NCBI RefSeq assembly: GCF_003987855.1
Contig: NZ_RXIZ01000014.1
Span: 1-64,000, forward strand
DNA length: 64,000 nucleotides
Origin: Hyphomicrobium sp.
GTDB taxonomy: Bacteria > Pseudomonadota > Alphaproteobacteria > Rhizobiales > Hyphomicrobiaceae
Direction: 5' to 3'
This document shows, piece after piece, positions 4,745 through 63,597 of this stretch. Position numbers and translations under genes: made by a program. Within the stretch, counting starts at the first letter, position 1. Every line of letters starts with the position of its first letter. Below the pieces are notes generated by a model. It did no database searches, was not told the DNA's origin, and saw nothing but the letters and a program-made list of their open reading frames with translations.

Positions 4745-4939
4745 AACGATAGTTCTCCCTCAAAGCCCACCCCTGGGATCAGGCTGTCTTTATATTGTCA
4801 GCACAATGGCGAGACGAGGGCGAGTGGCGCGCCTGCTACAGTTGACAGGTTTTTGGATTTGGCCGGCGTAAATCACAGAAATGCGAAAGGCCGCGACAAC
4901 GCGCGGCCTCGGGCTGGTGACGAGAAAAACGCGCGGAGA

Positions 4940-5236
4940 TCAGTGCATGTACGGAGAATTGCCGCCGTACAGACTGCCGACGCCCGAATCAAAAAAGAAG
5001 CTGTTATCGAACGGTCCGGCGATCGTTTGGTCACGAAAATCCGGCGGCCCCGGAGGCGCAGACCGTCTGCGTGACGGGGCGCCATAGGTGTTCACGGAAT
5101 CGGACTTGTCGTAAGAATAGCCGCCCTTTTTGCGATGAAGGGAATAGCCATTGGGGCTTTCCTGGGCGGAAGACGGCAAGGTCAACCCGACGAGGCATAG
5201 CACCGCCACGCTGGCCGAAATCAATCTAGAGATCAT
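4940..5236 (-). CDS. small exported hypothetical protein
   Basis: A 98-residue product beginning MISRLISASV, with a signal peptide ending at PSSAQ (about residue 23). The mature part is short and Tyr/Ser/Gly/Pro-rich, with a basic stretch GAPSRRRSAPPGPPDF and a C-terminal FFFDSGVGSLYGG. The ATG at 5236 starts directly on the signal peptide; a longer in-frame opening to 5440 adds residues that do not look exported. Function is unknown. Confidence 0.6.
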   Translation of the reverse strand: MISRLISASVAVLCLVGLTLPSSAQESPNGYSLHRKKGGYSYDKSDSVNTYGAPSRRRSAPPGPPDFRDQTIAGPFDNSFFFDSGVGSLYGGNSPYMH

Positions 5237-5510
5237 CGCTTGGCCTTTCCGCCGCCATTCGTTTCGGGGCATGTATAGCGCAAAGTTACCCGAATTATCC
5301 TTGCTCCGGCTCAAGAAATGGTTACGCGCCACATTTCCGGCAAGCCTGTCACTTCTCGACAACTCATCCCCATTGAAGACGCCCGAAGAACGGCGGACGA
5401 TCACGAAGCGTTCCCGGTGTGCTATCGGTTGTACGTCCATGCCCCATGAGGTTGCGGCCTCACGATGCTAATACCAGCCGGCACTCCCATCGTCCTTCCG
5501 AGGAGGACAC

Positions 5511-54048: not shown

Positions 54049-55155
54049 ATGCAGCGTGTGATCTTCCATTGGCTTTGCATCGGTTGTTTCAGTAGTGCGC
54101 TTTGCGCCTGTTCAACTGTCACCGCACCGGGGTCGGCGCTCCAACACCTCACCGCATCGGAATCGGACGAGGCACCAAAAGCGATTTCTGATCCTCACGA
54201 GACTCTCAACCGAACCGTCTTTGAGGCCAATCAAAAGTTCAACCATGCGCTTCTTTACCCGACTGCCAAGGCCTACAACGAATGCGTGCCGCAATATATG
54301 CGCGATAGACTCGACGCATTTACCGCCAACCTCGGGGAGCCGATGGTGTTCGCAAACGACATTCTACAGTTGCGCTTCAAGGCAGCGGCCACGACGATCG
54401 GGCGCGCCGGCCTCAATTCGACGATCGGGCTCGGCGGGTTGTTTGATGTTGCGAGCGCGCAGGGTTTAGCTAAGCAATCGGGCGACTTTGGTCAGACAAT
54501 GTATGTGTGGGGCTACCGGGAGAGCGCTTACTTGGTGCTACCCATCATTGGTCCCACCAACGTCAGAGATGCGATCGGCAACGGCGTCGAGTTCGGCGTC
54601 CAGCAGATACCTACGGCGGCATTACTGCCCGCAGCAGTCGCAACTATTGCGAACAACGTAAACCTCACAGGAAGCGTGACCGGTCCGCTCACCAACATCA
54701 GCAAAGCTGGCGACATGCAGAGTCTCGAGGAGAGTTCTATCGATTTCTATTCCATGCTTCGAAGCGTCTCGAGCCAAAAGCGGCAGGCTGAGCTGCAAGA
54801 AGCGCTGGATACGAGCGCACTGACTTCGGCGGCACTTCCAGATCCAAATGGGATCGAGCCTGTGACGCAGATCGTCTCGTTTCCGACCCTTCATGAGAAC
54901 TACCCCGCGTTGAGAACGTTCGGCCGAAGCAGACAAGCGTATTTCTTCAGCATCCTTAGCGTGTGTGGCCCGTCGGTCCTTTCGCGGAAGTGCCACGATC
55001 GGAACCTAAGATGCGCGACCGGAGCGGACTGCGCGTCGGAGAACCGCAAAGAGACGGGGATCACTCGATTGCACGACGTTGAAGCGCATAAACGCGGAAG
55101 CGGACTGCGAAACGCTGAAGACGTTGCCCGGCGCCAGCACGATGTTCTCTGCTAA
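54049..55155 (+). CDS. MlaA (VacJ)-family outer-membrane lipoprotein, extended C-terminus
   Basis: MlaA removes phospholipids from the outer leaflet and hands them to MlaC. A lipobox LCAC (Cys20 from the ATG at 54049) follows a hydrophobic signal. The family core reads NRTVFEANQKFNHALLYPTAKAY, NLGEPMVFANDILQ, INSTIGLGGLFDVAS-like (here LNSTIGLGGLFDVAS), DFGQTMYVWGY and LPIIGPTNVRDAIG. The core ends near residue 255; the last 100 residues are unrelated and the final 50 are antisense to the convergent MocR gene (150-base overlap). No mlaBCDEF nearby. Confidence 0.85.
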   Translation: MQRVIFHWLCIGCFSSALCACSTVTAPGSALQHLTASESDEAPKAISDPHETLNRTVFEANQKFNHALLYPTAKAYNECVPQYMRDRLDAFTANLGEPMVFANDILQLRFKAAATTIGRAGLNSTIGLGGLFDVASAQGLAKQSGDFGQTMYVWGYRESAYLVLPIIGPTNVRDAIGNGVEFGVQQIPTAALLPAAVATIANNVNLTGSVTGPLTNISKAGDMQSLEESSIDFYSMLRSVSSQKRQAELQEALDTSALTSAALPDPNGIEPVTQIVSFPTLHENYPALRTFGRSRQAYFFSILSVCGPSVLSRKCHDRNLRCATGADCASENRKETGITRLHDVEAHKRGSGLRNAEDVARRQHDVLC

Positions 55156-56406
55156 GGCCGCTCGTGCCAAATCGGCCGAATCCTGATCGTTCGGTAGCTG
55201 GCACCAGAGATGAAAGCCGCCGCGCGGCATCAGCCAGGGCTGAATGCCAACGGACTGCAACCGAGTGCCGGCCTGACGCCGGGCTCTCACAAGGCGCAAG
55301 CGTAATTCTTCCATATGTTTGCGGTAACTACCACCCGCAAGAACGCTGGCAATCAGCTCAGCTGCGACGGGGCTGGGTCCACCAAAGTTCGTCGCGACCT
55401 GAAGATCAGCAATGCCTTCAATCCAGTCCTCACGGGCCGCGATATAGCCGCACCGAATCGAGGCTGAAAGCGTCTTAGAAAAGCTGCCAATTCGAATAAC
55501 CCGATCGAGGCCGTCAAGCACAGCAAGACGTGGCGAAGGTTCGGGTTCAAAATCTGCATAGATGTCGTCCTCGACGATCGTAAGGTCGTGAGCCGCAGCT
55601 AGGCTCAAAATCTTGTAAGCAGTCTGCGGGGAGAGCGTCGCGCCGGTCGGATTGTGAAGTGCGGAATTGGTGATGTAAAGACGGGGTCGTTCAGTCGTAA
55701 GCACCTCATGGAATGCAGTTAAATCCGATCCCGCCGGCGTATAGGGCACACCTACTAGCCTGACCTGATGCGCCCGCAGCAGCGCTCTAAAATTAAAGTA
55801 GCAAGGATCATCGACCAATACTGTATCGCCGGGCTTAAGCAGGAAGCGGCAGATTAGGTCAATCGCTTGGGTTCCCGACGCAGTTAGTAACAGTTGTTGC
55901 GGGGACGCCTCGATCCCTTCTTCCGCAAATCGCCTGAGCAGCAATCCGCGGAGTACGGGAGATCCGCGCGTGCTTCCATAATAACTAAGCACAGGGTCTT
56001 CGGCTCGGGCGAGTGAACGCAGAGCGCGGCGAAGGGCGTCATTCGGCATATACGCTGCTGGCAACCAACCACAGCCCGGCTTCATCACCGTAGGATCGGC
56101 ATCGAGTGATTGTCGGGAAACCCAAAATGGATCGACGGCACTATCTCGGGGAGGCCACGCGTTTGCGAGCATCATCGGCGGCGCCCTTGTACCGGTGACA
56201 TAGAATCCCGAACCGCGCCGGGCACGGATCAATCCCTCGGCCGCAAGACGGTCGTAAGCCTCAACAACGGTGGATGGCGCCACACCCATGGTGGCAGCGA
56301 AACTTCGTATTGAAGGTAGTCTGTCGCCGGATGTCAGGGAGCGATTCTCCACTTTGGCGCGAATGGCGGTCATCACTTTGGAAGTTCGGGTTGGTGCGCT
56401 GCTCAT
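55006..56406 (-). CDS. MocR/PdxR-family GntR regulator with aminotransferase domain
   Basis: A 466-residue PLP-binding transcription factor. The GntR winged helix (about residues 15-75) has GDRLPSIRSFAATMGVAPSTVVEAYDRL; the class I aminotransferase domain follows with TASGTQAIDL, NPTGATLSP, VEDDIYADFEPEP and RIGSFSKTLSASIRCGYI, the Lys being the PLP site. It is divergent from an EamA transporter, the usual arrangement for MocR regulators controlling amino-acid, amine or vitamin B6 genes. ATG at 56406 chosen over a TTG 15 bases upstream. Confidence 0.93.
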   Translation of the reverse strand: MSSAPTRTSKVMTAIRAKVENRSLTSGDRLPSIRSFAATMGVAPSTVVEAYDRLAAEGLIRARRGSGFYVTGTRAPPMMLANAWPPRDSAVDPFWVSRQSLDADPTVMKPGCGWLPAAYMPNDALRRALRSLARAEDPVLSYYGSTRGSPVLRGLLLRRFAEEGIEASPQQLLLTASGTQAIDLICRFLLKPGDTVLVDDPCYFNFRALLRAHQVRLVGVPYTPAGSDLTAFHEVLTTERPRLYITNSALHNPTGATLSPQTAYKILSLAAAHDLTIVEDDIYADFEPEPSPRLAVLDGLDRVIRIGSFSKTLSASIRCGYIAAREDWIEGIADLQVATNFGGPSPVAAELIASVLAGGSYRKHMEELRLRLVRARRQAGTRLQSVGIQPWLMPRGGFHLWCQLPNDQDSADLARAALAENIVLAPGNVFSVSQSASAFMRFNVVQSSDPRLFAVLRRAVRSGRAS

Positions 56407-56419
56407 GTTGTTCGACCGC

Positions 56420-56465
56420 AATTGTATTGCTGAGTAAACCGATACAGTTTTGGAGAATTGTATCG
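56420..56465. promoter_or_regulatory. candidate MocR operator
   Basis: In the 123-base divergent gap AATTGTAT occurs twice in the same orientation (56420-56427 and 56456-56463, 36 bases apart), and CGATACA (56440-56446) with TGTATCG (56459-56465) make a 7-base inverted repeat. Paired direct and inverted elements match how MocR regulators bind, but the assignment is inferred. Confidence 0.5.
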
Positions 56466-56529
56466 AAGTGTGGTTGGTATCGCTAGATGCGATCGCTTAC
56501 AGCAGGTGCCTCAACCAAGGCGAGGCAAC

Positions 56530-57390
56530 ATGGACAGAACGACGGAGGGATGGGGCAGCGGACTCTTGGGCGTCATGATATTCAGTGGATCTCTGCCCGC
56601 GACGCGGATCGCGGTCGGTGGCTTCTCGCCCTTGTTTCTCACATCGGCTCGCGCCGTTATCGCGGCGATTCTCGCAGCAATCTGCCTCGCCGCAGCCCGG
56701 CAGCCGCTGCCAGCGAGAGGCGATATTGGCCGCCTCGCCATCGTCGCCCTTGGCGGTGTGGTCGGCTTCCCGCTTCTAACGGCTCTGGCGCTCCAGCTCA
56801 TCACCGCAGCTCATTCCATTATCTTCATTGGCCTCCTTCCGCTCGCAACGGCAGTATTCGGCGTGCTGCGCGGCGCTGAGAAGCCAAAGCCGGCGTTCTG
56901 GCTGTTCTCAGGCCTTGGCAGTGCGACAGTGGCAGGCTTCGCTCTTCTCAACGGCGGGAGAGGTCCGCTTGTCGGTGATATGCTGATGATCGCTGCTATC
57001 GTGGTGTGTGGTCTCGGCTATGCCGAGGGCGCAACGCTCTCCCGCCGCCTCGGCGGGTGGCAGGTTATTTCGTGGGCTCTTCTTTTGTCGTTGCCGATGA
57101 TGGCGGTCGTAGCATTGGCCTCGAGACCGCTTACTTTTTATGGAATCGGAGAGCCTGCCTGGCTCGGCCTTGCTTACGTCTCGGTCTTCAGCATGCTGAT
57201 TGGATTTATATTCTGGTATAGAGGGCTTGCACTCGGCGGCATTGCCGGTGTTGGGCAGCTGCAATTGCTTCAGCCTTTCTTCGGGCTGACTTTGGCGGGT
57301 CTACTGCTCCATGAGGCTGTAGCACCGATGATGATTGTGGCGGCGGTGTCCGTCGTCGTTTGCGTTGCGGGCGCCAAGCGCTTTGCCTGA
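56530..57390 (+). CDS. EamA/DMT-family transporter
   Basis: A 286-residue ten-span drug/metabolite exporter made of two EamA repeats (about residues 10-130 and 150-285). Typical features are the early SGSLPATRIAVGGFSPLFLT, AHSIIFIGLLPLATAVFG and GVGQLQLLQPFFGLTLAGLLLHE. Substrates of relatives include amino acids and other metabolites. The divergent MocR regulator suggests an amino compound. ATG at 56530 follows a purine-rich site AAGGCGAGG. Confidence 0.9.
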   Translation: MDRTTEGWGSGLLGVMIFSGSLPATRIAVGGFSPLFLTSARAVIAAILAAICLAAARQPLPARGDIGRLAIVALGGVVGFPLLTALALQLITAAHSIIFIGLLPLATAVFGVLRGAEKPKPAFWLFSGLGSATVAGFALLNGGRGPLVGDMLMIAAIVVCGLGYAEGATLSRRLGGWQVISWALLLSLPMMAVVALASRPLTFYGIGEPAWLGLAYVSVFSMLIGFIFWYRGLALGGIAGVGQLQLLQPFFGLTLAGLLLHEAVAPMMIVAAVSVVVCVAGAKRFA

Positions 57391-57562: not shown

Positions 57563-58432
57563 CTATCCGGCATCGAGCTTTCGCCGAATTACCTCGAGCT
57601 CTTCCATGCGTGCCTTGACCTTCGGCCAGTTCAGGGCGCTGAGGCGCGCGATCATCGCCTCGATCAGAACGGAGATCGGCGCAAACGAATCCCAATTCGA
57701 GTTGACGGCAATCCGCAATGCGAAGACGTGCTCCGCCACGGCAGACAGAGGTGACAACCACTCGTCTGTGAAAAGGATAATTTTCGCTCCGCGCGCGGCC
57801 GCCTCCTGTCCCATGCGGACGACGTCTTCCTGATAGCGGCGGATGTCAAAGAGCAGATATGTGTTCGACGGTGTCACTCCGAGAAGATGTTCCGCCCAGG
57901 TTGCCGTCTGGCTGTCGATGAAGGTTACGTTCGAGCGCAATTCGCGCAAGTGAAGATACGCCTGCAGTGCAAGACTGGATGTGAGCCGGCCGCCCAGGAT
58001 TGTCACTGGGCGGGTTTCATCTGCGAGCAGGGCGACGGCACCGTCAAATTCGGAGGGCCGGATCAAATGCATCGATGCGGCCATCGCACTCGAGACGGAT
58101 TCCCAATATTTTGCAAATGCGGGAATTTCCACCAGATCTTTAGCGTCGGCCGCGAGGACGCCCTTCGTCAACGGTGAACGCAGACGCGCTTCCAATTCGT
58201 CGCGCAGACGTTGCTGAAAATCGGCATAGGCGCCGAAGCCAAGCTTAGCAATCAATCGCAGAATGGTCGGATTGCTGACGCCGGCCTGCTTGGCGAACTG
58301 TGCCACAGTCTGGAGTCCGGGAACCGGATAGTTGCCCAAAAGAATAAGAGCGGCTTTGCGCTCCGTCGGCGTCAGTTGATCGAGCCGTCGGCGGATCATT
58401 TCCGCGACGGTGGTATGAGGCAGGCCGGTCAT
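57563..58432 (-). CDS. MurR/RpiR-family transcriptional regulator with SIS domain
   Basis: A 289-residue regulator: an N-terminal RpiR helix-turn-helix (about residues 1-80, with LTPTERKAALILLGNYPVPG, VAQFAKQAGVSNPTILRLIAKLGF) and a SIS domain (about 125-255) that normally binds a phosphosugar or similar ligand. It is divergent from the small membrane protein / glutamine-synthetase / nitrilase operon, with four GTACA elements between, and most likely controls it. Convergent with the EamA gene. Confidence 0.92.
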   Translation of the reverse strand: MTGLPHTTVAEMIRRRLDQLTPTERKAALILLGNYPVPGLQTVAQFAKQAGVSNPTILRLIAKLGFGAYADFQQRLRDELEARLRSPLTKGVLAADAKDLVEIPAFAKYWESVSSAMAASMHLIRPSEFDGAVALLADETRPVTILGGRLTSSLALQAYLHLRELRSNVTFIDSQTATWAEHLLGVTPSNTYLLFDIRRYQEDVVRMGQEAAARGAKIILFTDEWLSPLSAVAEHVFALRIAVNSNWDSFAPISVLIEAMIARLSALNWPKVKARMEELEVIRRKLDAG

Positions 58433-58737
58433 CGATGGGGCTCCAGGTCCGCGATTGCCTCCAAGCCTGTTCGTTTTAGAATTCGTGCCAAATAGTACAG
58501 CATCTAGGATCCAAATCGCCGAAATTTCGTGCAGCCGCTAGCCTACTCGAAGCCTGAACACGGGCCAAAGCCTAAAATGGCCATACGCGAGTTGGAAAAT
58601 TTGGTACAGATGTCTGTTATTTATAGTACAGTACGTGAATATATTTGTTTTTTCTGTTTTATTTGGTACATAGCTTGCAATGAGTTCGGCGGCAGGGGCT
58701 CCCGCTGAGAACCCTATGCAGAAGCAGGGGGAAGTGC
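58433..58737. promoter_or_regulatory. divergent control region with four GTACA repeats
   Basis: This 305-base gap separates the RpiR gene from the nitrilase operon and is AT-rich on its right side. It carries AATAGTACAG (58491-58500), AATTTGGTACAG (58598-58609), TATAGTACAG (58622-58631) and ATTTGGTACA (58661-58670). The two TTTGGTACA and two ATAGTACAG copies look like a regulator's binding sites near the operon promoter. The assignment to RpiR is inferred. Confidence 0.55.
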
Positions 58738-59046
58738 GTGTATCTGTCGGTAGACAATAGCAAGACGGCCGATGGATGGACGTTCATTGCTCCGTCCCTG
58801 GCGTTTCTCACGCAAGCGTTTGCGCTCTGTCTTTGCGCGACGAACATGGAGTTGCTGGGTAAGGACTTTGCGTTGGCGGAATGGATTATCCCGCCCAACG
58901 TTGCGATCTTCACAGTGGGCCTCGCCGGCGCATTTTTTATCAAGGCGACCAACCCAACAAAATTCGAAAAGACCGGCAGGCTCATCTATCGGGGCGTGCC
59001 CGACGGAATCCTCGCCTCCGCCAAACACTCGGCAAAACCGGCATGA
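58738..59046 (+). CDS. small membrane protein heading the nitrilase operon
   Basis: A 102-residue protein with two predicted membrane segments (about residues 15-35 and 50-68) and a polar C-terminus (NPTKFEKTGRLIYRGVPDG). It starts at a GTG at 58738 with AGGGGGA about 6 bases upstream. The family is not recognised. It lies 74 bases upstream of the glutamine-synthetase-like gene, whose first possible ATG overlaps its stop, so it is probably part of the operon, perhaps a transport or localisation subunit. Confidence 0.55.
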   Translation: MYLSVDNSKTADGWTFIAPSLAFLTQAFALCLCATNMELLGKDFALAEWIIPPNVAIFTVGLAGAFFIKATNPTKFEKTGRLIYRGVPDGILASAKHSAKPA

Positions 59047-59120
59047 ACTTACGCAACTGGTTCCGGCGCTCTGCGCCGGCCACTTTAGGCAACGATCTCG
59101 AACTCCAAACTAGGGACAGA

Positions 59121-60575
59121 ATGATGTCGGCCAAGCAGCCTCATTTCATTGAAGACCACGGCCTGTGGAGCGAAGAGCAAAAGCTCATGGCCGCCGATTT
59201 GATCGCCAGGATCGAGCGCGAAAACATCAAGTACATCCGCGTCGGCTGGGGCGACCAGCATGGTATCGTGCGCGGTAAGACGGTGACCGCCGCGGAGTTC
59301 CGCTCAAGCCTCAAAAGCGGCAAGGATTTTCAACTTGTCACGGCGATCTTCGATACGACGAACCACCCAATCGTTGCGCCGTTCGGCGATTCCAACAAAC
59401 TAAATGTTCCTGAGATGATCGGGCTTCCCGATGGTGTGCTGGTGCCGGACCCGTCGACCTTTCATGTTCTGCCTTGGGCGCCAGACACCGGCTGGATCTT
59501 GAGCGACGCTTATCTCTCTAACGGTACGCCGTGTCCGCTGTCGACGCGCCAGGTGCTGCGCAGCCAGCTCGAGCGTCTTGAGGAAAAGGGCCTTGAGATG
59601 GTCGTCGGCCTTGAGTTCGAATTTTACGTTTTCAAGCTCGAAGACCCGAGCCTCCGGCCCGAAGAGAGCGGCTATCCGCCCGAGCCGCCCAAGGTGTCGA
59701 TGATCTCCCACGGCTACCAGTATCTCACGGAAAATCGCGGCGACGAAATCGACCCGGTTCTTCGTCTGCTGCAATCCAATCTGGAAGCGCTTGGCCTGCC
59801 GCTCGCAACCGTCGAGGACGAGTGGGGGCCCGGCCAGTGCGAGATCACCTTTAGTCCGATGACTGCGATGAAAGCTGCCGACAGCGCTCTGTTGTTCCGT
59901 TCGGCGGTGAAGCAGATTTGCCGCCGCAACGGCTATCACGCGACGTTCATGGCAAATCCGCAGGTGCCGAACGTCTTTCCGAGCGGTTGGCATATGCATC
60001 AGTCGATCCGCCGCATCGCGGACAAGACCAATTTGTTTATGGCGGAAGGCGACGACGGTCCGCTTTCCACATATGGCATGAATTACGTTGGCGGCTTGCT
60101 GCAAAATGCGGCAGGAACCTCTCTCATGACCACGCCGACCATTAACGGCTACAAGCGTCAACGTCCCGATGGCTTCGCGCCGTTCAAGGCGGGCTGGGCA
60201 TTGGAAAACCGAGGGGCGATGATCCGCGTCATCGGGCGACCAAACGATCCGGCGTCTCGCGTTGAAAACCGCGTCGGCGAGCCAACGGCGAACCCATACC
60301 TTTATATCGCCTCGCAGCTTATTGCCGGCCTCAATGGTGTCGAAACGCAAAAGGATCCTGGCAAACCCGCTGCTGCCGCTTATCTCGCCGACGCGCCACT
60401 CCTGCCGCGCAGCCTCATGGACGCTGTAGAAGGGTTTCGCAACAGCACAGTTATTAGGGATGCTGTCGGTGAAAAATTCTGGAACTACCTTATCATGCTC
60501 AAAGAGTATGAAGTCGCCCGCTTCCTAGCCGCGGTTACAGACTGGGAGCAAAAAGAATACTTCGAGATGTACTAG
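59121..60575 (+). CDS. glutamine-synthetase-family ligase (possible gamma-glutamyl amide synthetase)
   Basis: A 484-residue ATP-dependent amide ligase of the glutamine synthetase superfamily. Metal- and substrate-binding motifs are present: GLEFEFYVF, GPGQCEITF, FPSGWHMHQSI, ENRGAMIRV and ANPYLYIASQLIAGLNG. It is unlike housekeeping GlnA and lacks the adenylylation Tyr context, so it probably joins glutamate to an amine, as PuuA and GlnA3-type enzymes do. ATG at 59121 follows AGGGA by 5 bases; an upstream ATG at 59043 overlaps the previous stop. Followed by nitrilase and amidotransferase genes. Confidence 0.85.
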   Translation: MMSAKQPHFIEDHGLWSEEQKLMAADLIARIERENIKYIRVGWGDQHGIVRGKTVTAAEFRSSLKSGKDFQLVTAIFDTTNHPIVAPFGDSNKLNVPEMIGLPDGVLVPDPSTFHVLPWAPDTGWILSDAYLSNGTPCPLSTRQVLRSQLERLEEKGLEMVVGLEFEFYVFKLEDPSLRPEESGYPPEPPKVSMISHGYQYLTENRGDEIDPVLRLLQSNLEALGLPLATVEDEWGPGQCEITFSPMTAMKAADSALLFRSAVKQICRRNGYHATFMANPQVPNVFPSGWHMHQSIRRIADKTNLFMAEGDDGPLSTYGMNYVGGLLQNAAGTSLMTTPTINGYKRQRPDGFAPFKAGWALENRGAMIRVIGRPNDPASRVENRVGEPTANPYLYIASQLIAGLNGVETQKDPGKPAAAAYLADAPLLPRSLMDAVEGFRNSTVIRDAVGEKFWNYLIMLKEYEVARFLAAVTDWEQKEYFEMY

Positions 60576-60618
60576 CGCGGCTCAATCATTCAATGCCCAG
60601 GTCATCAGGAGAATGCTT

Positions 60619-61557
60619 TTGAAGATCGCCGCTGCTCAGATCAGGCCCGTTTGGCTCGACAAACGCGCGACCGTCGCAAAAGTCATCGACACAATAAAGC
60701 TAGCGGCCGCCGAGCGGATAGATCTGCTGGCCTTTCCTGAAGCGTTCGTGAGCGGATATCCGTTTTGGTTATGCCGGACGAATGCCGCTGCGTTCGGCGA
60801 TCCGAAGCAGAGCGAAGCCTATGCGCGTTTTCTTGACGCGTCGATGGAGGCCGATTCCGAAGAGGTGAAAGAGATCGTGCAGGCGGCGCGCGACTATCGT
60901 GTGTCCGTCTTTCTCGGTTTCAACGAGCGCGGCAACGGGATTGGGCAAGGCACGCTGTACTGTTCCTTGTTAAAGGTCGACTGCAACCAAGGGCTGTTGG
61001 GCGTACATCGCAAGCTCATGCCGACTCACGATGAGCGCTTGTGCTGGGGTGCTGGAGACGCGCACGAACTTCGCACGCACCGCATCTCAGGAGTTCAGGT
61101 TGGCGGCCTTTGTTGCTGGGAAAACTGGATGCCGATGGCGCGATTCGCTCTGTACTGCGGCGGCGAGGAGCTACATATCAGCCTTTGGCCTGGCAATGCC
61201 GTAGTCGCAGAGGGCATCGTTTCCGCTACAGCGCGCGAGGGCCGGGTCTGGTCGCTGAGTGTTCACGGACTTTTGTCGATGAGCGATATCCCCGATGATT
61301 TCCCGTTTAAATCGGAACTTATCGCGGAAGGCCATGATGTGATTTTCAACGGCGGCTCTTCGCTGGTTGCGCCGGATGGAACGGTCGTCATTCAGCCATC
61401 GCCTGGCGTGGAAGGATTGATCTCGCACACCATTGACGTGAAAAAAGTCTACGAAAACCGGCAGCTTTTCGATGTCACTGGCCACTACTATCGGCCGGAT
61501 ATTTTCGACCTTCACATTCGCGGCGACCGCTTCGACGCCGCGAAGCTCTGGCGCTGA
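60619..61557 (+). CDS. nitrilase (carbon-nitrogen hydrolase branch 1)
   Basis: Hydrolyses a nitrile to the acid plus ammonia. The 312-residue protein has the Glu-Lys-Cys triad: FPEAFVSGYPFW (Glu), GVHRKLMPTHDERLCWG (Lys) and GGLCCWENWMPMARFALY, whose CWEN-x-MP motif is that of true nitrilases rather than amidases or omega-amidase; the nucleophile is Cys166. The TTG at 60619 has AGGAG 7 bases upstream, whereas the ATG at 60613 is too close to that site. The substrate is unknown; it sits in an operon with a glutamine-synthetase-like ligase. Confidence 0.9.
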   Translation: MKIAAAQIRPVWLDKRATVAKVIDTIKLAAAERIDLLAFPEAFVSGYPFWLCRTNAAAFGDPKQSEAYARFLDASMEADSEEVKEIVQAARDYRVSVFLGFNERGNGIGQGTLYCSLLKVDCNQGLLGVHRKLMPTHDERLCWGAGDAHELRTHRISGVQVGGLCCWENWMPMARFALYCGGEELHISLWPGNAVVAEGIVSATAREGRVWSLSVHGLLSMSDIPDDFPFKSELIAEGHDVIFNGGSSLVAPDGTVVIQPSPGVEGLISHTIDVKKVYENRQLFDVTGHYYRPDIFDLHIRGDRFDAAKLWR

Positions 61558-61601
61558 TCAATTCGAATGCTGCATATTAAATTGGAGCCGCCTGCCGGAA
61601 G

Positions 61602-62282
61602 ATGAGAATTACCGTCATTCAGAACAGCGCGTATGGCCGCGCCGGTCTCGTTGAAAAATTCATAGCATCTAAAGGTTGGACGTGTCGGCGCACACTGTCG
61701 CCGAAAGATATCGTGACGACTGATCTCGCCGATGTCGTGGACGATACCGTCGTCTTTCTCGGGTCGCGCCGCGGCGTCTACGAAACTCATGTCCAATGGA
61801 TTGCTCGCGAGCGAGCGTTAATGAGGCGTCTCATCGACAAAGCTGTTCCGGTCTTGGGTATCTGCTTCGGGGCGCAACTGCTCGCGACCGCCGTGGGTGG
61901 CGCGGTCAAACCGATGAGACATCGATATCGCGGCTGGATGGAAAATACCGTTGCGAGCACTCCCATGTGGCAGGGGCCGTGGCTGCGCTGGCATGGAGAT
62001 TTCATTACGTTGCCAGTCGGGATAAAAGTGCTGGCGAGCGATAACGAGACCGTGCAGGCATTCGAATATGGAAACGCGGTTGGCGTCCAATTTCATCCCG
62101 AAGTTTCAAATGCGGTACTTAAAGATTGGGGCGCCTATCGAAGTGCCATGCCCGACGAGGACCAGCGATCTCTCGCCAAGGCTCTGAACTACGCGGATAA
62201 CCACGCCTTCGAAATCGAAAAACGCGCATTCTCACTATTTGACAATATCTTCGAAAAGATTTCGGGGCGGAGTTCGGCATGA
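61602..62282 (+). CDS. class I glutamine amidotransferase-like protein
   Basis: A 226-residue stand-alone GATase1 domain with nucleophile Cys88 in GICFGAQLLATAVGG and the His165/Glu167 pair in VQFHPEV. No synthetase domain is attached, so it probably hydrolyses a gamma-glutamyl or glutamine bond in its own right, as PuuD does after PuuA. It follows the nitrilase by 44 bases and closes the operon. Its last codons are followed after about 60 bases by a degenerate tRNA-Gln 3' end. Confidence 0.85.
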   Translation: MRITVIQNSAYGRAGLVEKFIASKGWTCRRTLSPKDIVTTDLADVVDDTVVFLGSRRGVYETHVQWIARERALMRRLIDKAVPVLGICFGAQLLATAVGGAVKPMRHRYRGWMENTVASTPMWQGPWLRWHGDFITLPVGIKVLASDNETVQAFEYGNAVGVQFHPEVSNAVLKDWGAYRSAMPDEDQRSLAKALNYADNHAFEIEKRAFSLFDNIFEKISGRSSA

Positions 62283-62424: not shown

Positions 62425-63597
62425 TCAATCCGTGGTCCGAGCGAACGACGACCAGAGGGCCGATTTCAAAACAGCGGTTGAGAATTTCCGATTTTTCTGC
62501 GGCGGTTGCTCCAGCCCGAGCCGACGCATTACCGCGGCAACGATCTCAGCGTTTGCAGTCGGCTCCTTTTCCATCTTCACTAGAATAAGTTCCAGAAACT
62601 GCCTTTGCCAACGGGTCTTGAGAGGCATTTCACTGATCAAGCGCGTTGTGAGTGGCTGCGGGAAGGGCCATGGCTGCGGAACACCCGCTGCGACGAAATT
62701 AAGTTTGGTCAAAATGCACTTTGGACAGACGCCGCAATTCTCACCTGTCCTCGGCCCAGCCCAACAGACGTGAAGGTGAGGAATAAGGGAGCGATACTGC
62801 CCAATGTAGCTGGCTCGTTCGATACGATCGAAAGCGCCACCGTCCGATTCAATCTTCAGCTTAGAAGAAGAAAAGAAGCGGTCGCTCCAAAAGCTATTTC
62901 CCCAAACTGGAAAACAGTTCTGATAGCTTTCCTCAGTTGCGATCAATGCAATATCGTGACGATGCGAGAATTGATGCAAGACAGAAGCCAAGCCAGCGCC
63001 GAACGTCATTTCCCAGTTTGTTACTAGGCTTCGCCAGTTGGTCTTAACGGTGACGAGATCAACTCCGAGATCCCTGCATATCGCGGTCCCGTGTCGAGCC
63101 ATTGTTTCGAACCCGTCTGCAGCATCGAGCGGCATATCAAATCCATGAACCATGACCGCAGTTGCAACGTCTCGAATAGCTCTCCCAGCCTCCTTGTGGG
63201 CATGACGGCTTAGCGTGAAGGTACTGTCGATGCCCGCCGAAAACGCGACCAGGGCGCGCTTTGTCTCCTGACCGACGTTCGCGCGGGAAGACTCAGAGTC
63301 CGACGTGATTTGAATTTTCTTCTTGTAAATGTCGGGTCGCCAGGAATGCCAAACCTCCTGATAGTGATCGAGACCGTCAAGAAGTGTTGAATCCAATTCG
63401 AACTCTGCGTGCAAATCCACCATTTGATACATCGCGATCGGCAGCATCGCGATCAGAGCAAAATCTCCACCATCGAAAGCTGGAGGACTCGCGCCGTCAC
63501 GGGGGGTGATCTCAAAAAAGAGTGGGGGAAGCTCTCCATTGGTCAAAACTTCGCGATGGAGCCCATCTTCGGAAATGCGCAGCTTGAGACCCGCCAT
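62425..63597 (-). CDS. PP-loop ATPase, QueC-like, function unknown
   Basis: A 390-residue adenine-nucleotide alpha-hydrolase. The PP-loop is VAFSAGIDSTFTLS with SAGIDS at 120-125. Near the C-terminus Cys278, Cys288, Cys291 and Cys294 (CWAGPRTGENCGVCPKC) follow the C-x9-C-x2-C-x2-C zinc pattern of QueC, but the N-terminal 110 residues and the overall length differ from QueC (about 230), so it should adenylate a different acid or RNA-like substrate. It lies 15 bases after the truncated alanine racemase, so the two are probably cotranscribed. Confidence 0.75.
   Translation of the reverse strand: MAGLKLRISEDGLHREVLTNGELPPLFFEITPRDGASPPAFDGGDFALIAMLPIAMYQMVDLHAEFELDSTLLDGLDHYQEVWHSWRPDIYKKKIQITSDSESSRANVGQETKRALVAFSAGIDSTFTLSRHAHKEAGRAIRDVATAVMVHGFDMPLDAADGFETMARHGTAICRDLGVDLVTVKTNWRSLVTNWEMTFGAGLASVLHQFSHRHDIALIATEESYQNCFPVWGNSFWSDRFFSSSKLKIESDGGAFDRIERASYIGQYRSLIPHLHVCWAGPRTGENCGVCPKCILTKLNFVAAGVPQPWPFPQPLTTRLISEMPLKTRWQRQFLELILVKMEKEPTANAEIVAAVMRRLGLEQPPQKNRKFSTAVLKSALWSSFARTTD

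Follow-up and report, generated by a model that had tools for sequence, protein, structure and literature searches.

A glutamine synthetase-like amine ligase and a nitrilase form a recurrent gene pair in Hyphomicrobium sp. and other bacteria: a proposed variant of the glutamylation route

We analysed a stretch of 64,000 nucleotides from Hyphomicrobium sp. (contig NZ_RXIZ01000014.1, positions 1 to 64,000; hereafter the window), which carries between 58433 and 62282 an operon encoding a glutamine synthetase (GS)-like gamma-glutamyl-organic-amine ligase of 510 residues (59043..60575, + strand), a branch-1 nitrilase of 314 residues (60613..61557, +) and a stand-alone class-I glutamine amidotransferase (GATase; 61602..62282, +). 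The ligase and the nitrilase were found together at 21 loci, the window included, in Pseudomonadota and Actinomycetota, and 13 of these 21 also have an adjacent GATase. The pairing exceeds chance, and a glutamylation route in which a nitrilase replaces the oxygenase of aniline-type clusters would be a new variant. No description of the gene combination was found in the titles and abstract openings of the open-access papers listed by literature searches. Judged from the sequences, the genes would form a catabolic or detoxifying module for an organic compound that has a nitrile group as well as a primary amine, acting by glutamylation, nitrile hydrolysis and release, a reading to which we give a probability of about one half.

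A sequence-only reading of the window had located the open reading frames (ORFs) of the operon and assigned four families. Both points are borne out by the ORF listing and by Pfam (Gln-synt_C, 274 bits; CN_hydrolase, 127 bits; GATase, 57 bits; HTH_6 and SIS for the regulator), while a separate small membrane protein gene, also proposed, did not hold (see below), so that this description stands in part. The conserved co-occurrence it had called for was sought by a contig scan led by the nitrilase, with a two-sequence alignment as query, which confirmed at least 573 relatives. The best 80 of them, together with plasmid loci and loci from genome searches, gave 107 nitrilase loci. The pair was called linked when the ligase lay at most 600 bp upstream of the nitrilase on the same strand, and a ligase was directly upstream in this way at 19 of the 107 loci. 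No ligase was seen upstream at the other 88, a few of which lie near a contig end (e.g. L017, L028, L060, L091) where a neighbour may be missed. ORF families clustered from unlinked loci (>6 kb) were taken as general genes or coding shadows, not each being inspected. Beyond the trio and the regulators, other recurring families reached at most five of the 19 linked loci each (an SDR-type family in five, at varying places), a count that rests on greedy ORF calls, unreliable in high-GC loci, and no catabolic gene was seen to recur downstream at all 19.

Because nitrilase queries favour nitrilase loci, searches were also made with the ligase only. Among plasmids, 686 records matched the ligase and 10 neighbourhoods were examined from 25 listed: the best match among those examined, from Streptomyces tendae (55%), holds ligase, nitrilase, GATase and a GntR regulator, and the other nine (44-50%) have a Rieske oxygenase alongside the ligase. 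In the window's order the ligase query gave 46 places in 45 of 397 genomes, own genome included. Thirty of these places were examined; the window and G144 (reached via L114) are nitrilase-linked, and 28 (L129-L156) adjoin a Rieske oxygenase. The nitrilase, at E <= 1e-80, was found in 9 of the same 397 genomes (own included) and adjoins a ligase in two, the window's own and G144, and at class level the ligase, at E <= 1e-170, was recovered from its own genome alone among 385.

Six residues of the ligase, Q71, T74, F77, P83, W235 and F352, are present at all 19 linked loci. In a comparison set of 38 ligases, made of 37 Rieske-linked ones and L010, Q71 and F352 occur in none, T74 in one, W235 in three and F77 in four. 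These columns were selected after the data had been seen. An actinobacterial order, searched with the ligase only, yielded 12 places in 11 of 338 genomes (the query's own included), three of which carry the ligase signature and are all nitrilase-adjacent, one being the query's own and two being new. The signature, with all six residues, predicted the nitrilase neighbour at both new loci. The full six occur at 0 of the remaining 9 places, which show no nitrilase neighbour within the flanks examined (five Rieske-linked, four with neither gene). On the nitrilase side, 19 linked sequences were compared with 75 unlinked ones, after removal of 13 more distant unlinked sequences. Here R55 was found in 19/19 linked vs 14/75 unlinked, G130 in 18/19 vs 6/75, D140 in 18/19 vs 23/75 and F245 in 19/19 vs 0/75, and the nitrilases of the two new loci carry all four residues.

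A third context of the ligase was observed at three of the four places with neither gene, L178, L179 and L180 (genomes G1290, G1150 and G1138), where a GS-like ligase lies beside an APC permease (25-26% identity). An aminotransferase-like gene, judged from translations, is also present in the two of these loci with ORFs listed, and no nitrilase or Rieske match occurs in the stretch examined at any of the three.

The best match of the window ligase in the PDB is 8wwu, with 432 bits, the runner-up reaching 187 bits. We read this entry as NpaA1, the enzyme that glutamylates 1-naphthylamine in PMC11335346, since the accession occurs twice in the text of that paper and the loop residue numbers fit the sequence. 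According to the paper, NpaA1 gamma-glutamylates aromatic amines, and the glutamyl-organic-amine synthases (GoaS) are marked by amine-site acids (E232 and E234 of NpaA1), loss of the Glu-flap glutamate, loss of Asp50' and an extra N-terminal amine loop (motif 15) (PMC11335346). The amine-site acids are kept in 19/19 nitrilase-linked ligases, and the Glu-flap glutamate is replaced by Phe in the same 19/19, the GlnA-type paralogue of the window's genome (L113) having Glu there. The columns of the N-terminal amine loop are filled in the linked ligases and in NpaA1 and gapped in this paralogue. At the position of the GS catalytic Asp (Asp50'), where the loop alignment is uncertain, the window has Asn, the 19 linked ligases have 8 Asn and 11 Gly, and Asp is present in 6/38 of the comparison set; the catalytic Asp may well be lost in the linked ligases. 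By its Glu-flap and amine-site residues, the window ligase is predicted to belong with the gamma-glutamyl-organic-amine synthases and not with the ammonia-using GS. With the Glu-flap glutamate absent and the organic-amine site acids kept, the acceptor is more likely an organic amine than ammonia. The capture of released ammonia by glutamate ligation, as first proposed for this operon, is not supported by a ligase of this kind.

The ligase tree was built with 50 rows, 13 Rieske-linked rows having been removed beforehand for thinning. A single branch, with support 96/99, parts the 19 nitrilase-linked from the 24 Rieske-linked rows, and the latter form a clade.

Branch-1 nitrilases have a Glu-Lys-Cys catalytic set plus a second Glu, and this set is complete in the window protein (E43, K134, E141, C168). 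Its assignment as a true nitrilase is upheld by the comparison with solved structures, in which nitrilases and cyanide hydratases or dihydratases score 102-150 bits and the best amidase 25 bits. The AlphaFold2 model has a mean predicted local distance difference test score (pLDDT) of 92.9, and in the top 50 rows of a Foldseek search with it the first amidase appears at rank 26, behind 25 nitrilases and cyanide-degrading relatives. The nitrilase tree places the linked rows in two clades, one of 10 proteobacterial and one of 9 actinobacterial sequences.

Class-I GATases use a Cys-His-Glu triad, which is intact in the window protein (C88, H165, E167), and a gamma-glutamyl hydrolase is its probable function. 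The GATase follows at most 600 bp downstream at 13/19 linked loci, and the two new loci have no adjacent copy. Six of the eight linked loci without it were searched, and five of these genomes gave a match elsewhere at E <= 1e-12; these matches share 27-43% identity with the five linked GATases taken for comparison and are not called orthologues. For the PDB entry of the best GATase match, the literature gave unrelated papers only.

In the proposed sequence of reactions, the ligase, to judge by its family and pocket residues, would couple glutamate to the amine as a gamma-glutamyl amide at the expense of ATP, the nitrilase would then turn the nitrile of the conjugate into a carboxylate and ammonia, and the GATase, where present, would split the gamma-glutamyl bond to give glutamate and an amino acid. 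The nitrilase is placed after the ligation because of the gene order and because the signature residues of ligase and nitrilase go together. As no common downstream catabolic gene was seen, the pathway may end in a common amino acid such as glycine, alanine or beta-alanine, and small aminonitriles would therefore be the first candidate substrates; aromatic aminonitriles may be substrates as well. In its specific form, a glutamate-protected nitrile route in which the aminonitrile is tagged, the nitrilase meets it as a stable, charged conjugate and the tag is finally taken off, in parallel to the oxygenase route of the anilines, we hold this scheme tentatively, at a little short of even odds.

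Several observations weigh against this scheme or limit it. W235 and F352 alone are not specific, both being found in three ligases that have no nitrilase or Rieske gene next to them, and R55, G130, D140 and F245 were picked post hoc from all columns. The aromatic tunnel residues would suit aromatic amines as well, and the GATase is not adjacent at 8/21 loci. In the ligase tree the fork between L033, the eight actinobacterial rows and the ten proteobacterial rows is not settled, so that either context may be the older one. In the 45-row nitrilase tree the starred branches force two changes, and the linked rows form one clade in 0% of 200 bootstrap trees; with two nitrilase clades and forced changes, a single origin of the pairing is not established. 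The approximately unbiased (AU) test did not reject a single clade of linked nitrilases (p 0.09).

The reactions might also run in the order suggested by the sequence-only reading: the nitrilase would hydrolyse a free nitrile, and an amine or amino acid derived from it would then be glutamylated by the ligase. Free nitriles are the usual nitrilase substrates, and the 88/107 nitrilase loci without an upstream ligase indicate that the fold needs no glutamylated substrate. Nevertheless, the lost Glu-flap glutamate makes ammonia capture unlikely, and the two signatures co-occur, also at the two loci outside the selection set, so that we regard this order as rather unlikely. From the earlier interpretation, the conserved neighbourhood and the ligate-then-hydrolyse logic are retained and the ammonia capture is abandoned.

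An enzyme acting as an amidase or a cyanide-type hydrolase, within a module for general amine or cyanide detoxification, would agree with the presence of amidases in the CN-hydrolase family and of cyanide hydratases and dihydratases among the top fold matches; it is improbable in view of the distance between the top amidase and nitrilase scores (25 against 150 bits) and of the Foldseek ranking, in which amidases come only after the nitrilases and cyanide enzymes. The patchy spread in the order and class searches would fit genes that travel together by horizontal transfer without sharing a pathway. Gene order and strand are, however, the same in two phyla with the regulators exchanged, and the ligase signature predicts the nitrilase, which makes mere co-travel the poorest account of the pair, with little chance of being right.

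Upstream of the ligase, the ORF at 58738..59046 (+), which had been read as a small membrane protein, is instead the remnant of an internally deleted APC-type amino-acid permease. Two same-genus genomes have an intact APC permease at this position (L104, 535 residues; L105, 82% identical over 530 residues), of families PF13520/PF00324. In the window ORF about 10 residues from the start of the permease and 90 from its end are preserved in frame, with some 430 residues gone, and it is 66% identical to the L104 permease over 100 aligned residues. A blastn comparison leaves 1,292 bp of L104, lying between two matched blocks, without counterpart at window 58762/58763, and this gap may be a genuine deletion or an assembly error. 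Another permease, 50% identical, is encoded elsewhere in the window's genome. The ligase ATG at 59043 overlaps the stop of the remnant ORF, and a core start is at 59121. Small membrane proteins divergent from the ligase were observed at two of the linked loci, L012 of Azorhizobium oxalatiphilum (4768-5292) and L018 (4780-5295), the L018 copy matching DUF1097.

The operon is preceded by a divergent RpiR-family regulator (HTH_6 and SIS; 57563..58432, - strand), which ends just ahead of 58433 and is likewise placed in the two same-genus genomes. Near the pair, XRE-cupin regulators occur at 7, GntR/FCD at 9 and RpiR at 3 of the 19 loci, and GntR at the two new ones, so that a regulator from one of three families lies near the pair at 21/21 loci. 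Three ATTTGGYAC boxes between the RpiR gene and the operon, in blocks kept across three same-genus genomes, are candidate operators: ATTTGGCAC at 58485..58493 (-), inside a block (58485-58502) identical in the three genomes, and ATTTGGTAC at 58599..58607 (+) and again at 58661..58669 (+), both conserved in the three. The whole window has 5 copies vs 0.59 expected, for a pattern chosen after the alignment had been seen. The operon held no more promoter- or terminator-like sites than shuffled sequences did.

Beyond the operon, 62425-63597 (- strand) encodes a 390-residue protein in whose translation a PP-loop-like AFSAGIDSTF and CxxCxxC stretches can be read, and which has no match in Pfam, NCBIfam, PADLOC or PDB. 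Beyond it, on the same strand, are genes of the alanine-racemase and polysaccharide pyruvyl transferase types. On the other side, at 55006-57390, a GntR/aminotransferase (MocR/PdxR-like) regulator is divergent from an EamA-type transporter.

If the proposed scheme is true, nitrile hydrolysis would join the chemistry downstream of amine gamma-glutamylation, and aminonitriles would be among the substrates that soil bacteria encounter. The contexts found suggest that activating ligases of one kind have been paired with partners of three or more kinds: oxygenase, nitrilase, or permease plus aminotransferase-like gene. The signature would let annotators separate these ligases from glutamine synthetase and from the aniline-type ligases.

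The Puu putrescine pathway, with its gene roles PuuA to PuuD, had been named as resembling this operon in its logic. It shares the ligation to glutamate with later hydrolysis of the gamma-glutamyl bond, and an APC permease is present in the intact operon of the two relatives. Unlike the Puu pathway, the operon has no oxidase or dehydrogenase gene, and the ligase lies far under the cut-off of the NCBIfam gamma-glutamylputrescine synthetase model (NF045547; 216 bits vs 650). The Puu pathway is not the closest comparison, the nearest solved structure being the aromatic-amine enzyme NpaA1. With the Nit6803- and NIT4-type nitrilases the window protein shares the branch-1 fold and catalytic residues; it differs by its glutamate ligase partner and its own signature residues, and scores 160.9 bits against a cut-off of 502.6 with the Nit6803 equivalog of NCBIfam (TIGR04048). 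The closest resemblance is to the aniline and 1-naphthylamine degradation clusters, with GoaS enzymes such as AtdA1, TdnQ, DcaQ and NpaA1. Like them, the operon has a GS-like gamma-glutamyl-amine ligase, next to which a GATase is often found, as at the plasmid loci. The window ligase shares E232, E234 and W235 with NpaA1 (PMC11335346). In contrast to the aniline-type ligases, its amine-loop residues differ and it lies across a supported tree branch, and in place of the Rieske oxygenase of those clusters stands a nitrilase.

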